14,765 nucleotides of DNA, from assembly GCA_024640925.1 (NCBI GenBank), contig JAHEEB010000017.1, positions 1 to 14,765 of the forward strand, given 5' to 3'. This DNA is from Bacteroidota bacterium (GTDB lineage Bacteria > Bacteroidota > Bacteroidia > Bacteroidales > UBA10428). The position numbers and the translations under genes are program-made. The notes beneath the pieces were generated by a model. That model ran no database searches. It saw only the letters and a list, made by a program, of their open reading frames with translations, and was not told where the DNA came from. Positions 1 through 4,809 of this stretch are shown in pieces (within the stretch, counting starts at the first letter, position 1; the number at the start of each line of letters is the position of its first letter).

Positions 1-812
1 AATATGTTTGAGTCATCATAGCCGGGTTCTCCCGAGGTGTTTGTGGCAATTAAGCCAGGAAGACGGCCAATTAAAGTGTTATTTATTGATGAGGCTGGTG
101 TTGTTCCCAGATCCTTTCCGGAGGCTGAAACGACAGAACCAGTAATAGTTGCCTTTTTCTGGGTTCCATACCCGATAACAATAACTTCCTCGAGATTTTG
201 AATATCAGTAATCATACTTACATTTATTTCCGTCTGATTGCCAACAGGTATTCTTTGAGACACAAAACCCAGGTAAGCAAAAATTAGAATGGACTCATTC
301 CCCTCGGGAAGATTAATAGTGAAATTTCCGTTCATATCGGTTACTACTCCTGTGGTTGTGCCTTCTACAGAAATATTAACACCAATTAGCGGTTCTTTAG
401 TAACTTCATCAATTACTTTTCCGGTAATAACCTGTTGCTGTAACTCTGTTTTTGAGGCAATTACAATCAAACCATTTTCCAGAAGCTTAAATGTGTTATT
501 GGTGTTTTCGAAAGTTGCATTTAAAACTGAGCTTACTGGTGTTTTGGTTACATTCATACTAACCCGAATAGTGTTCACATCGCTGTCGCGATAAAGAAAT
601 TTGTAATTGGTCTGACGTTCAATTGAAGCAAAAACTTCTTTTGCTGTCGACTGATTAAGGTTTAATGTTACCCTTTCGTTTTGTGAATACGTCGAAGCGC
701 TTACATAGAGCAAGTTTACTGTCAATAAAAACGTGGTGATTTTCATAATGAGCAAGGTTTTTTTTATCCAATAGGAATCCTTCTCTGAAAATGAATCTTT
801 TCTGTTTTTCAT
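1..812 (-). CDS. SusC/RagA-type TonB-dependent receptor with STN domain, N-terminal part
   Basis: Outer-membrane receptor that, with a SusD lipoprotein, imports oligosaccharides using TonB energy. The 3' end lies beyond base 1; 270 residues are visible. In order: a 22-residue leader before a second Met (base 746), a hydrophobic signal peptide (about 23-43, ending TYSQ), an STN domain (about 46-120), a CarboxypepD_reg-like beta domain (about 128-203, with GVNISVEGTTTGVVTDMNG), a TonB-box-like LEEVIVIGYGTQKK (208-220) and the start of the plug (IGRLPGL). The ATG at 812 is preferred over 746 because SusC proteins paired with FecR often carry such a basic pre-signal extension. The STN domain marks it as a signalling receptor that contacts the FecR protein encoded just upstream (953-2041). 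Complete receptors are about 1000-1150 residues. The substrate is not readable from this part. Confidence 0.95.
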   Translation of the reverse strand, partial: MKNRKDSFSEKDSYWIKKTLLIMKITTFLLTVNLLYVSASTYSQNERVTLNLNQSTAKEVFASIERQTNYKFLYRDSDVNTIRVSMNVTKTPVSSVLNATFENTNNTFKLLENGLIVIASKTELQQQVITGKVIDEVTKEPLIGVNISVEGTTTGVVTDMNGNFTINLPEGNESILIFAYLGFVSQRIPVGNQTEINVSMITDIQNLEEVIVIGYGTQKKATITGSVVSASGKDLGTTPASSINNTLIGRLPGLIATNTSGEPGYDDSNI

Positions 813-820
813 TTTTCAAA

Positions 821-895
821 AGTTAAATGGTTCATTAATCTGTAAGAAATTCTCAATCAGGCTAAATCTGCAACATTTGCCTGTTTGTGTATTTT
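821..895 (+). ncRNA. candidate antisense sRNA over the susC leader
   Basis: Plus-strand element in the 140-base gap between fecR and susC, antisense to the susC 5' untranslated region. It opens with AGTTAAATGGTT, has a second block TGTAAGAAA (841-849), and ends in a hairpin: CAGGC (858-862), AAAT (864-867), loop CTGCAAC (868-874), ATTT (875-878), GCCTG (879-883), then a T-rich tail (884-895). A related copy lies at 2872-2951 with the same loop but different stem bases, which argues for a structured RNA. The matching -7 position (CATTTTTC, 810-817) is a poor promoter and overlaps the complement of the susC start codon. Bacteroides PULs with sigma/anti-sigma pairs are known to carry antisense sRNAs at this place (DonS in B. 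fragilis). Ends are inferred. It could instead be a leader structure of the susC mRNA. Confidence 0.5.
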
Positions 896-952: not shown

Positions 953-2041
953 TTAGGGGGTTTTATAAATATCAACTTTATCTTTTTCAATGGTATAGCG
1001 GATTGGTGCAATCATTGATAGTGCATTGAGCGATTGCTGCAATGTTTCCTTTTCAAATTTTCCGGAATACCTGCTTTCATTAAGTTCTGGAGCATGAATA
1101 ATAACTTTTACATTGTACCATCTCTCGAGTTTAATCATAAGATCCTGGAAAGTCTCATTATCAAAAACAAGAAGGTTATCTTTCCATGCTGTATAGTTGG
1201 TAGTATTAATATTTGTCTCAACAACAGGCGTTGTATTTGCAACAATATCGCTAACAGGTAAAGGTTTTTCAACTTGCTCTTTGAGTTCAGTCTTTTCGTT
1301 TTCGATGGTGTTTTTAGGAATTGAAATTTTTTCGTTAGGCTTTAAATAAATATGTTCTGATTTTTGCTCTTCGGTTTTCCCTTTGAATATTTCTATAGAA
1401 CCAGTTACCAGGGTTGTTACAACATTTTTATCTTCCGGGTATGCCTTTACATTGAAAGTAGTACCCAGAACCTTAATGTTTACATCAGAAGTTTTCACAT
1501 AAAAGGGTGCCTTTTTATTTTTTGTAATATCGAAAAATGCTTCTCCTTCGAATTCCACCTGGCGGTTTTCTTTTCCGAATGAAACAGGATACTTAATATA
1601 ACTTCCCGAATTGAGAGTGACTTTGCTCCCATCGGGCAGTGTAATGGTTGATTTTGAACCATAAGGTACCTCTACAACCACATATTCATTGCTTTTAATT
1701 ACTGGTTTATTCTGTAAATAATTGTAAAACAAGAAAATACTTACTACAGCAAAAAAGAAGGCCGCATAAGACATAACCCGCATTGCAAGTTTCTTACTCC
1801 TGCGGTTAATCAGAGGAGCATTTGCTCCGGTTGATAGGTTGGTAACTATTTTTGAATAATTTTTTTCTGAGTCAAAGCGATCAGCGGAAGGAGAATTATC
1901 ATTCCAGATTGTATCGAAGAAAGTGTTTACCTCTTCATTTGGATCTTCATTAAAATATGATTTAAGCAACGATATCTCATCCTCACTGATAGTTTTATCT
2001 TTGAGCTTTTCAATTAAGCAATATAGATTTTTGTTTTCCAT
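953..2041 (-). CDS. FecR-type anti-sigma factor
   Basis: Inner-membrane anti-sigma factor linking the SusC STN domain in the periplasm to the ECF sigma factor in the cytoplasm. Residues 1-84 form the cytoplasmic sigma-binding part (DEISLLKSYF). One membrane span lies at about 86-106. The periplasmic FecR domain follows (about 120-220), with VPYGSKSTITLPDGSKVTLN, EGEAFFDI and VLGTTFNVKAY. A low-complexity linker (about 220-285) leads to a C-terminal DUF4974/STN-like domain (about 288-360) with LLVFDNETFQDLMIKLERWY. Its 362 residues are normal for the family. It lies between the sigma gene (145-base gap upstream) and susC (140-base gap downstream). The gaps leave room for separate promoters; TAATTTCG about 45 bases before the ATG is a weak -7 candidate. 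The function is family-level; the signal sensed is unknown. Confidence 0.95.
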   Translation of the reverse strand: MENKNLYCLIEKLKDKTISEDEISLLKSYFNEDPNEEVNTFFDTIWNDNSPSADRFDSEKNYSKIVTNLSTGANAPLINRRSKKLAMRVMSYAAFFFAVVSIFLFYNYLQNKPVIKSNEYVVVEVPYGSKSTITLPDGSKVTLNSGSYIKYPVSFGKENRQVEFEGEAFFDITKNKKAPFYVKTSDVNIKVLGTTFNVKAYPEDKNVVTTLVTGSIEIFKGKTEEQKSEHIYLKPNEKISIPKNTIENEKTELKEQVEKPLPVSDIVANTTPVVETNINTTNYTAWKDNLLVFDNETFQDLMIKLERWYNVKVIIHAPELNESRYSGKFEKETLQQSLNALSMIAPIRYTIEKDKVDIYKTP

Positions 2042-2186: not shown

Positions 2187-2765
2187 TTATTCGCTAAAAT
2201 ATTTTAAATATTCATCTTTTATAAACTTCAGACTGCTGCGCATTTGTGTATCGACGGTATTTTCGGAAATATTTAAACGAGTTGCTATTTCCCTATAAGT
2301 CAATCCTTCGAACCGGTTAAGCTTGAAAATTTCTTTGCGTTTAGGGGGCAATTGTTCAATTATTTTAGTAAGTATGTGCTGGGTTTCGGAAAAATCAATT
2401 TCTTCGTTGGTAGTATTCTGAGGAAAAATAATTTTGTCGACATCTGAATTTGCCTTATCATGAGATAGTAAGTAGTTGCGAAAAGCCTGGTAAGTATTAT
2501 ATCGGGCGATAGAATAAATGTATTTTACAAGATCCTTCGAAGAATCAAGCTGGGTACGTTGTTCCCATAACGCTAAAAAAGTTTTCTGAACAACATCTTC
2601 GGCTTCATTTTTTGATGGTAATAGTTTATTACAAAAATGAAATATTTTAACACCTAACAGGTTATAGATGGTTCGAAAGGCTGCTTGATCCCCGTTTTTT
2701 AAGTTTTCAATTGTTCTTTTATCGATAGATTGTTCCATCAGGCACTTCTGATCTAATTCGCTCAT
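2187..2765 (-). CDS. ECF-type RNA polymerase sigma factor
   Basis: Extracytoplasmic-function sigma factor expected to be held by the FecR protein at 953-2041 and to transcribe the susC operon once released. Region 2 covers about residues 27-100 (AAFRTIY, EAEDVVQKTFLALWEQ). Region 4 covers about 135-185 (IEQLPPKRKEIFKLNRFEGL, YREIATRLNISENTVDTQM), a helix-turn-helix that reads the -35 element. At 192 residues it is a usual size. An in-frame ATG at 2738 would give 183 residues and a leader spacing more typical of the family. A near-consensus -7 (AATATTTG, bases 2780-2773 on the minus strand) sits so close to the ATG at 2765 that this start would make the message almost leaderless, so the later start deserves attention. 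Confidence 0.95.
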   Translation of the reverse strand: MSELDQKCLMEQSIDKRTIENLKNGDQAAFRTIYNLLGVKIFHFCNKLLPSKNEAEDVVQKTFLALWEQRTQLDSSKDLVKYIYSIARYNTYQAFRNYLLSHDKANSDVDKIIFPQNTTNEEIDFSETQHILTKIIEQLPPKRKEIFKLNRFEGLTYREIATRLNISENTVDTQMRSSLKFIKDEYLKYFSE

Positions 2766-2841
2766 AAAAGTGCAAATATTTCTTACACAATAAGCATTAA
2801 TATTTAAAAATCAAGATAATTCCCTATTCCTGATTAGTTAG

Positions 2842-2868
2842 TTGGTTAATAAATCTTTCGTATTTTTG
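2842..2868 (+). promoter_or_regulatory. Bacteroidota promoter for plus-strand sRNA
   Basis: TATTTTTG at 2861-2868 matches the Bacteroidota -7 consensus TAnnTTTG exactly, and TTGG at 2842-2845 can serve as the -33 element with somewhat short spacing (16 bases from TTG). It points away from the sigma gene, towards the sRNA candidate that starts at about 2872. No plus-strand protein gene follows within the locus. Confidence 0.5.
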
Positions 2869-2871
2869 TAC

Positions 2872-2951
2872 AGTTAAATGGTTTGATTGATTTGTAAGAA
2901 AAATCATTTTGCGAAACGGGAGATACTGCAACCATTTCCCGTTTCTTTTTT
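2872..2951 (+). ncRNA. candidate orphan sRNA, paralogue of the susC-antisense element
   Basis: About 80-nt plus-strand transcript predicted in the 313-base gap between the sigma and GH5 genes, both of which are on the minus strand. It begins a few bases after an exact TAnnTTTG element and ends in an intrinsic terminator (2913-2951). Its 5' part matches 821-849: AGTTAAATGGTT is identical, a middle part differs mainly by changes that keep G-U pairing, and TGTAAGAAA (2893-2901) is identical. Its hairpin loop contains the same CTGCAAC (2926-2932), on an unrelated 12-bp stem. It could bind the susC leader in trans or regulate another receptor gene. Alternatively, it is a relic of a lost susC start region: the place equivalent to the susC ATG reads ATA on the minus strand. 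No transcript evidence is available here. Confidence 0.55.
2913..2951 (+). terminator. intrinsic terminator of the orphan sRNA
   Basis: A 12-bp stem (2913-2924 with 2934-2945, one G-T wobble) encloses the loop ACTGCAACC and is followed by six Ts (2946-2951). It works only in the plus direction, because the minus strand has no T run after the hairpin. No plus-strand coding region ends here, so it implies a short non-coding transcript. Confidence 0.8.
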
Positions 2952-3078
2952 GCAAAAGCTCGTCGGATGAATGCATTTCCCTTTTAATAAACCCGTTGAT
3001 AACATGTGCGAAGGAAATCGTTCAATTAAAAACAACCTATTTCACTTAAATTGTTTTGACAGGATGGTAATAATAGCT

Positions 3079-4047
3079 TCACCACCCACTCTTAGCAGCT
3101 TTCTCACGAAGAAGGATTCGGATTAATCTTCCTGTTTCTGTAAGTTCTGATTCGGACCAGCCTCCTTTTGAAGATGCATGGGGAACAAGAGCTGCCGTTG
3201 TTTCCTTTTTATCTGCAATCATCCATTTAACACCAGAAATTTTGTTTGTGTCCATCCAATTATACCATTTCTCAAGCTCTTCAAAATTTATGGTACCATC
3301 ACCCGATGCGTTGCTTTCTCCATATTCAGAAATAAAAATCGGAATTCCTTTTTTAAGGGCATAATTACATCTTTCTCTCAACCATTCTTTATGAGTATCG
3401 GCATAAAAATGAGCCGTATACATTATATTATCGAAACCGGTAATCGGATCATCTGCGGCAATTTGAACATCCTGGCTCCAATGTGGCGAACCAACCAGGA
3501 TAATATTGTCCGGATCATACTGTCGGATTGTTTTTATAACTTCAATAGAATAGTTTTTTACTTCTTCCCAGGTATCGTTAACTGGTTCGTTATAGATTTC
3601 GTAAATAACATTTGGGTAAGCACCGTATTTCTGGGCCATCAATGAAAAAAAACTTTTTGCCTCTTCCTGTTTAAGGGAATGGCTATGCCAATCAATAATT
3701 ACATAAATATTATTTCGAATTGCAGCATCGATAACCTGACTTGCTAATCTGAGAGCCCTTTTGGGACATTTTATGTAAGCCCTTTTGGGATCAACTCCAA
3801 TGGCAGCCCTGACAACTTCTGCTTTCCAATCGTTAGCCAACCAGTTAATAACGTCAGCATTGTAATACTGAGGCCACCAATTATGCCACCCCAGACTAAC
3901 TCCTCTAAGCATAACATCCTCATCATTTGACCCTTTAATAAAAACCCCATCAACATGAAGTTGACCAAATTTCTTAACGGGTTGTGAATAGGTATTATAG
4001 GAGAAGCAGATAGAAACAAAAATAATATAGATAACTTTTGTATTCAT
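3079..4047 (-). CDS. secreted GH5 endo-beta-1,4-glucanase, subfamily 2-like
   Basis: Retaining glycoside hydrolase that most likely cleaves internal beta-1,4 bonds in cellulose or related beta-glucans outside the cytoplasm. A signal peptide covers about residues 1-21 (ends NTYSQ). The (beta/alpha)8 domain fills the rest: LRGVSLGWHNWWPQYYN (47-63), conserved Arg80 in VVRAAIGV, VIIDWHSH (116-123), acid/base Glu154 in YEIYNEP, TAHFYADTH (211-219), nucleophile Glu241 in FISEYGES, and Trp275 in KWMIADKKETTAAL. These motifs fit the cellulase subfamily GH5_2 rather than mannanases. There is no carbohydrate-binding module or T9SS tail, and the length equals a bare catalytic domain. It has its own promoter and a 313-base gap before the sigma gene, so a shared role with the SusC system is likely but unproven. 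Confidence 0.93.
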   Translation of the reverse strand: MNTKVIYIIFVSICFSYNTYSQPVKKFGQLHVDGVFIKGSNDEDVMLRGVSLGWHNWWPQYYNADVINWLANDWKAEVVRAAIGVDPKRAYIKCPKRALRLASQVIDAAIRNNIYVIIDWHSHSLKQEEAKSFFSLMAQKYGAYPNVIYEIYNEPVNDTWEEVKNYSIEVIKTIRQYDPDNIILVGSPHWSQDVQIAADDPITGFDNIMYTAHFYADTHKEWLRERCNYALKKGIPIFISEYGESNASGDGTINFEELEKWYNWMDTNKISGVKWMIADKKETTAALVPHASSKGGWSESELTETGRLIRILLREKAAKSGW

Positions 4048-4302: not shown

Positions 4303-4809
4303 TTAGGAACCAGATTCTTCTGATTTTTCCTCGTCAGTGCCTTCTTTTTTCTCTTTAAAATAAAAATACACACCAAAAACCACCAAAACAATTACTATGG
4401 CTTTCCCTCCAAATCTATCCCATAGAGAGGCTTTAACCTTACCCGTGAGATCTATTTTTAGTTCAGAGGATATGAGTTTAACATCTTCATCAGTCAATTC
4501 AACATAGTTATCTCCATCAATATATCCGCAAACTTTGGGTTCAGTCTTAACCCACATAGGAATCCAGAACACATGAATTGTGTTGTATATAACTCCGAAA
4601 TCAAAATTTGTTCCGTCTTCGGATACATAATATCCTGTGTCTCCCTCTTCTGTTATATAATATGCATTGTCGGGAATTTCTGCGATTTTCCTTATTTTTT
4701 CAGCTTCGCCCCAAATCACCATACCACGGGCATATGATTTGTTTAAGCCGAAAGTACATAAGCCTGCCACTGTAAGCATAAGCATCAGTAGGATTTGTTT
4801 ATTCTTCAT
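4303..4809 (-). CDS. secreted, C-terminally anchored protein of unknown function
   Basis: I do not assign a known function. The 168-residue product has an N-terminal signal peptide (about 1-28, ending YARG), an extracytoplasmic stretch (about 29-132) rich in acidic and aromatic residues, one membrane span (about 134-152, AIVIVLVVFGVYFYF) and a short charged tail (EKKEGTDEEKSEESGS). The expected topology is a periplasmic domain with a cytoplasmic tail. Within the outer part, PDNAYYITEEGDTGYYVSED and DGTNFDFGVIY (about 46-75), then FWIPMW and CGYIDGDNYVEL, recall a group of small Bacteroidota hypothetical proteins. That resemblance is from memory and not checked. It follows the M28 peptidase gene after a 114-base gap and ends at its own terminator. 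Confidence 0.85.
   Translation of the reverse strand: MKNKQILLMLMLTVAGLCTFGLNKSYARGMVIWGEAEKIRKIAEIPDNAYYITEEGDTGYYVSEDGTNFDFGVIYNTIHVFWIPMWVKTEPKVCGYIDGDNYVELTDEDVKLISSELKIDLTGKVKASLWDRFGGKAIVIVLVVFGVYFYFKEKKEGTDEEKSEESGS

Follow-up and report, generated by a model that had tools for sequence, protein, structure and literature searches.

A candidate small RNA of a susC-antisense family encoded upstream of the sigma gene of its own PUL

Introduction

Between a GH5 cellulase gene and an ECF sigma gene, both on the minus strand, a PUL of a draft Bacteroidota genome carries a predicted small RNA gene on the plus strand. The RNA is complementary to the leader of a susC gene that lies about 2 kb away and is separated from it by the fecR and sigma genes, which raises the question of where such an RNA came from and on which gene it would act. 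The reading favoured here, with a probability of roughly 55%, is that it is an antisense repressor of the PUL that has been displaced from its site in cis and now acts on susC in trans. The window, i.e., the whole 14,765-nt stretch of DNA that was analysed, is one entire contig (G000:C1058) of an assembly with 1131 contigs, 81.9% completeness and 3.6% contamination. Elsewhere in the window, a 168-aa ORF at 4303-4809 on the minus strand, between the GH5 and peptidase M28 genes, has no Pfam match at E 0.001.

Results

Anatomy of the small RNA gene upstream of sigma

The features of the locus are collected in Table 1. The initial annotation had described a complete small transcription unit where no plus-strand gene exists, and its signals are borne out in the sequence: a TTG, an exact TAnnTTTG box, which we take to be the Bacteroidetes −7 consensus, and a terminator-like hairpin formed by GAAACGGGAGAT, a 9-nt loop and ATTTCCCGTTTC and followed by T6, in a stretch without a plus-strand ORF of at least 60 aa. 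In PMC7366714, the TAnnTTTG −7 element is named as sigma-ABfr. The pairing of TTG and box is found in 112 of 2000 dinucleotide shuffles of 2766-3078 (given strand), and the box alone in 586 of 2000, so that the promoter pair by itself is near chance level. The hairpin stands above chance, with −14 kcal/mol reached by none of 100 shuffles. Homology, as judged from sequence comparison, is the stronger evidence for the unit.

The leader strand of the sigma gene at 2776-2796 (minus) resembles the small RNA at 2884-2904 (plus), the two sharing TGTAAGAAA in an inverted repeat of 76% identity. This likeness is perhaps due to chance or perhaps a mimic.

Table 1. Features of the window that bear on the small RNA and its predicted target
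Feature	Position	Strand	Basis or remark
susC, 5′ part, runs off the contig	3..812	-	TIGR04056 E 1.1e-47; Pfam
Apparent place of the lost −7 box, susC-side copy, CATTTTTC	811..818	+	no TAnnTTTG with at most 1 mismatch
5′ block, susC-side copy; complement is susC leader −9 to −37	821..849	+	alignment, pairing
Degenerate hairpin, susC-side copy: bulged, T-run broken	846..893	+	R1 and R2 scores
FecR anti-sigma gene	953..2041	-	PF04773, PF16344
ECF sigma gene, transcribed away from the small RNA gene	2187..2765	-	PF08281, PF04542
TTG, −33-like element	2842..2844	+	starts 19 nt upstream of the −7 box
TATTTTTG, exact TAnnTTTG −7 box	2861..2868	+	exact consensus match
Predicted small RNA, about 80 nt	2872..2951	+	start placed by the box, end by the T-run
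5′ pairing block, complementary to the susC leader	2872..2901	+	29 pairs, one bulged G
12-bp terminator hairpin	2913..2945	+	−14.7 kcal/mol; covaries across the family
T6 run of the terminator	2946..2951	+	sequence
GH5 cellulase gene, end 128 nt from the small RNA terminator	3079..4047	-	PF00150 E 8.4e-54

Membership in a conserved susC-antisense family

A GGG-CTGCAA-TCCC hairpin pattern has matches in 86 of 295 genomes, and among 50 loci examined besides the window, those in G028, G276 and G184 are susC-antisense units; an exact longer pattern, searched over the genome contigs, gave no match. A first covariance model, R1, was built from the window and three loci from the pattern search and run over 393 genomes of the order. 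The 30 R1 loci examined comprise 11 antisense units at the fecR/susC junction, the window itself and 18 other terminators. The second model, R2, was built from those 11 antisense loci alone with the window left out, and it recovers the sigma-side unit with 55 bits over 2905-2951 (E 3e-8 per genome). The −7 box lies 44 nt ahead of the R2 model start, i.e., upstream of the hairpin as in the family.

Among the 35 R2 matches listed for the window's own taxonomic family, the 27 examined are the window, 19 susC-antisense units, one sense hairpin, which sits at the fecR/susC junction, and six others; three of the remaining rows are the opposite strand of the same place and five more are outside the count. 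Across the order, 51 of the 60 listed matches were examined, with 34 new loci divided into 25 susC-antisense units and nine others. At least 56 family loci are thus placed at susC or at the fecR/susC junction (11 + 19 + 25 + L206, which is G281:C294), 45 of which are not part of the R2 model; examples are L116, L115, L120, L128, L131, L206 and L243. Five of the 56 (L138, L158, L162, L166 and L169) have a fecR match and no susC match, four of these loci being close to masked bases or to the end of a contig, while L226 and L237 were placed at susC by eye and L206 by its ORF. Outside this count are R2 matches at a fecR length downstream of sigma in L007, L010, L017, L029, L031, L033 and L207.

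The shared features of the family extend to the promoter region. An exact TAnnTTTG occurs at the matching place in 18 of 28 members away from a contig edge, and the box is weaker or absent there in the other 10. In all 18, the exact box begins with the T of a CAT that is complementary to the ATG opening the susC frame (the susC frame of L206 was traced in L219). The sigma-side −7 box has no overlapping ATG, and the gene alongside it is sigma. In an alignment of 30 rows, consisting of 29 susC units and the window, 95.5% of the cells of the hairpin are paired and 10 of the 12 pairs vary on both sides, a level of covariation reached by none of 500 shuffles. Neither the window nor any of 20 member loci scanned has an Rfam match at the gathering score. 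The best sub-threshold match of the window (E up to 10), to the enterobacterial SraC/RyeA family RF00101, lies on the opposite strand, scores 23 bits where 37 are required (E 0.012) and is put down to chance.

The likeness to PUL antisense RNAs that had been noted from the sequence is supported. The description of the RNA as an orphan was wrong on two counts, as it belongs to a conserved susC-antisense family with 56 other loci and its own locus still holds a decayed cis copy at susC.

A decayed copy at susC

This second copy of the unit lies at the window's own susC at 811-893 on the plus strand, antisense to the susC leader. Its hairpin scores 16.1 bits with R1 (E 0.036) and 8.6 bits with R2, compared with 65 and 55 bits for the sigma-side copy, and the two hairpins have a CTGCAAC loop in common. 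An RNA from the susC side could still arise from a promoter of another type. The match to 821-849 pointed out in the initial annotation holds, with 26 of 30 aligned columns identical, and its boundary does not, as the likeness extends past 849 into the degenerate hairpin at about 846-893.

The 12-nt core of the 5′ block occurs at three places in the window's own assembly, namely the two copies and the fecR coding region of contig C742, compared with four for a reversed-pattern control. A gapped version of the block has 27 places in the GTDB genome collection, of which only L204 (the G313 locus) is a susC-antisense unit; L195 lies inside a susC gene, and the others have no susC, fecR or sigma match nearby. 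The 5′ blocks of the two window copies are alike and both shorter than that of L204, which suggests that the unit was duplicated within this lineage. Outside the copies, the flanking sequences no longer match clearly, indicating that the copying was not very recent.

These observations bear on the possibility that the sigma-side unit is a relic, that is, a stray copy of the susC leader region in which promoter and terminator survived by chance and from which any RNA made would be inactive. The arrangement is known from a single genome with no susC alongside the unit, and the place of the susC start codon is taken by a non-start codon (by eye), as would be expected of a relic. The decay, however, is found in the susC-side copy, while the sigma-side box, 5′ block and hairpin are intact, and the loss of clear similarity between the flanks argues against a very recent copy. 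A relic is therefore considered unlikely, although it is the best placed of the alternatives to a displaced, trans-acting repressor.

Position upstream of the sigma gene

Of the family members placed, the window's copy is the only one located upstream of a sigma gene, and the unusual place remarked on in the initial annotation is borne out by comparison with the 56 members at susC. The best relatives of the sigma protein in the searched genomes are at most 47% identical, and the three best by E-value (47, 44 and 40%) have an R2 match about 1.2-1.3 kb downstream of sigma, about the length of fecR, and none upstream of sigma. Across 41 sigma loci, no R2 match (E up to 5) was found upstream of sigma within the flank covered, and the genomes searched yielded no close ortholog with the same arrangement. 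The apparent displacement rests on one draft genome.

A screen for a second case covered 500 nt upstream of each of these 41 sigma genes (355 nt in one) with a loose box-plus-hairpin filter, which three loci passed (L007, L208 and L216). L007 was rejected for its weak hairpin and L208 because its hairpin falls within a partial ORF resembling a group II intron maturase (by eye). In L216 (G349:C242), the stretch ahead of a related sigma gene contains TATTTTTG in antisense orientation and, after it, two hairpins, of which the second has a long T-run. Although the best-looking of the three, it was set aside as well: the pairing of its RNA with the susC start region of that locus is not specific, with only −17.3 kcal/mol compared with −16.9 for the sigma start there, and the hairpin may serve to terminate the gene upstream. 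Another susC in the window's own assembly, at L085 (G000:C345), has a DonS-like antisense unit with TAGATTTG at the start codon and a strong hairpin with a T-run, the sequence of which differs from that of the window unit's hairpin.

The location itself would fit an action in cis, in which the RNA is antisense to a long sigma-fecR leader or to transcripts reading through from GH5, and would tune the regulator genes, not susC. The RNA lies opposite the stretch upstream of sigma as DonS lies opposite the susC leader, and its complementarity to such a transcript would be perfect. For a cis role on sigma, however, the sigma transcript must begin upstream of the RNA gene, and the minus strand there shows no TAnnTTTG with at most one mismatch from 2870 to 3110. 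The sole near match, AATATTTG at 2780, is downstream of the RNA gene with poor TTG spacing, and a sigma transcript from there would miss the RNA, as far as TAnnTTTG-type promoters are concerned. As action in cis also leaves the kept complementarity to susC unexplained, it is judged improbable, and slightly more so than a relic.

Predicted pairing with the susC leader

The RNA-RNA interaction prediction proposed at the outset singles out the susC leader as far better than 54 or 59 other gene starts. The sigma-side RNA forms 29 base pairs with it, with one bulged G, from −9 to −37 relative to the start codon (−31.8 kcal/mol). Pairing of the 5′ part (2871-2913) with the leader reaches −36.8 kcal/mol, a value reached by none of 500 mononucleotide shuffles of the RNA, compared with a mean of −14.6 (sd 2.3, best −20.0) for 59 other start regions of the same assembly. 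With self-folding subtracted, the whole RNA has −22.6 on the susC leader and a mean of −2.9 (sd 2.4, best −10.9) on 54 other starts. When the RNA of one family member is set against the leader of a different member, the median is −7.3 (182 ordered pairs, 14 sequences). The pairing is also one-sided, with −31.5 for the sigma-side RNA on the susC leader versus −21.3 for the reverse case, in which the susC-side sequence is set against the sigma-side strand and pairing at the three substituted positions is lost. As had been anticipated, the changes in the middle of the block keep G-U pairing, with all three substitutions between the copies still pairing as G-U.

This pairing is support and not proof. 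Common descent already accounts for the complementarity, and three transitions would all preserve pairs with a probability of about 1 in 8, so that selection on the pairing between the RNA and the susC leader is not proven. A loop-loop contact between CTGCAAC of the RNA and GTTGCAG of the susC leader is perfect over 7 nt but is given little weight, as CTGCAA loops are common in the family.

The same predictions weigh against the possibility that the RNA acts in trans mainly on other mRNAs. The multi-target FopS RNAs provide a precedent, acting on many susC mRNAs according to PMC11697453, and the 59 and 54 starts compared are a small share of the genes in an incomplete assembly. The best of these starts nevertheless remain far from the window's susC for both the 5′ part and the whole RNA, and other main targets are regarded as a long shot. 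Least credible of all is the reading of the shared block as an ECF-sigma promoter that the sigma gene and susC have in common, with a DNA element taken wrongly for an RNA gene. The block does stand ahead of both genes of one sigma/anti-sigma locus, but its two halves are 14 nt apart at susC, 15 nt at sigma and 18 nt in L204 (by hand count), and such an element explains neither the homology and covariation of the terminator nor the antisense −7 box.

Discussion

A proposed displaced antisense repressor

The unit, its homology, its displaced place, the decayed cis copy and the complementarity were computed directly. In the displaced-repressor reading, the norm of the family would be a short DonS-type RNA antisense to the susC leader, with a promoter at the susC start codon, a 5′ pairing part and a terminator hairpin. 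The copy upstream of sigma appears intact, while the copy at susC has lost the promoter box and most of the terminator. The first 30 nt of the displaced RNA are predicted to bind the susC leader from −9 to −37, just upstream of the start codon, and RNA bound to the leader would, by analogy, hinder initiation of SusC translation. A former cis antisense repressor would in this way now be trans-encoded inside its own PUL. Transcription of the RNA, its pairing with the leader in cells, the repression and the decay at susC after duplication are what we infer from these features.

A fuller history can be proposed more tentatively, and we would not put it at even odds. In such a cis-to-trans hand-over, the repressor was copied to the sigma end, the copy at susC died, the distant copy took over the silencing of susC, and substitutions were limited to those that keep the pairing. 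If true, the hand-over would have set the promoter of the repressor beside the regulator genes and freed it from the susC start codon, in which the other members with an exact box have it nested.

The origin of trans-acting small RNAs is largely open, and among Bacteroidales relatives susC is repressed both by cis-antisense RNAs (DonS) and by RNAs acting in trans (FopS). With PUL cis-antisense and trans-acting FopS RNAs already known, it is the displaced variant that appears to be new, as seen in the sequence of one genome. A literature search, outside of which lay most subscription papers including Cao et al. 2016, turned up no description of such an RNA relocated from susC to a sigma gene. 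Also described here is the susC-antisense family itself, without an Rfam match in the 20 loci scanned and with its −7 box nested in the susC start codon (18/28).

Comparison with known systems

DonS and other PUL-associated cis-antisense RNAs of Bacteroides were reportedly described by Cao et al. in 2016. The DonS family comprises RNAs of 78-128 nt against susC homologs, of which ten and later 32 were annotated in B. thetaiotaomicron (PMC7366714 and PMC10994844). DonS represses its PUL by a mechanism given as unknown in PMC11697453. The predicted RNA of the window resembles this type as a short, terminator-ended PUL RNA, with about 80 nt judged from sequence signals, and all 56 of its placed relatives are antisense to a susC leader, a comparison made by description. 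It differs in that DonS-type RNAs are encoded divergently against susC, whereas the window RNA is encoded upstream of sigma and would act in trans, and in that its counterpart at susC is degenerate. Given its distance from susC, beyond fecR and sigma, it is not classed as a cis-antisense RNA.

The FopS RNAs and GibS of B. thetaiotaomicron provide the second comparison. According to PMC11697453, nine of the 14 FopS RNAs come from intergenic regions, four are antisense and one derives from a 3′ UTR, and FopS-10 binds beside a susC start codon, with a translation block proposed from in-vitro data. By the same account, the likeness of FopS/GibS to the window RNA consists of a 5′ pairing region and a terminator hairpin in about 65-70 nt, a canonical promoter in the case of FopS, and binding beside a susC start codon with action in trans, which for the window RNA is predicted only (−9 to −37). 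The FopS family has 14 copies that share a seed and act on several susC targets, whereas the window RNA has one intact copy and one strong predicted target. The Rfam scan gave no FopS match, and as Rfam may not include this family, FopS is told apart by description. Taken together, the locus looks like a step between the DonS and FopS types, with family and target sequence unchanged, a new address, and a dying cis copy still visible.
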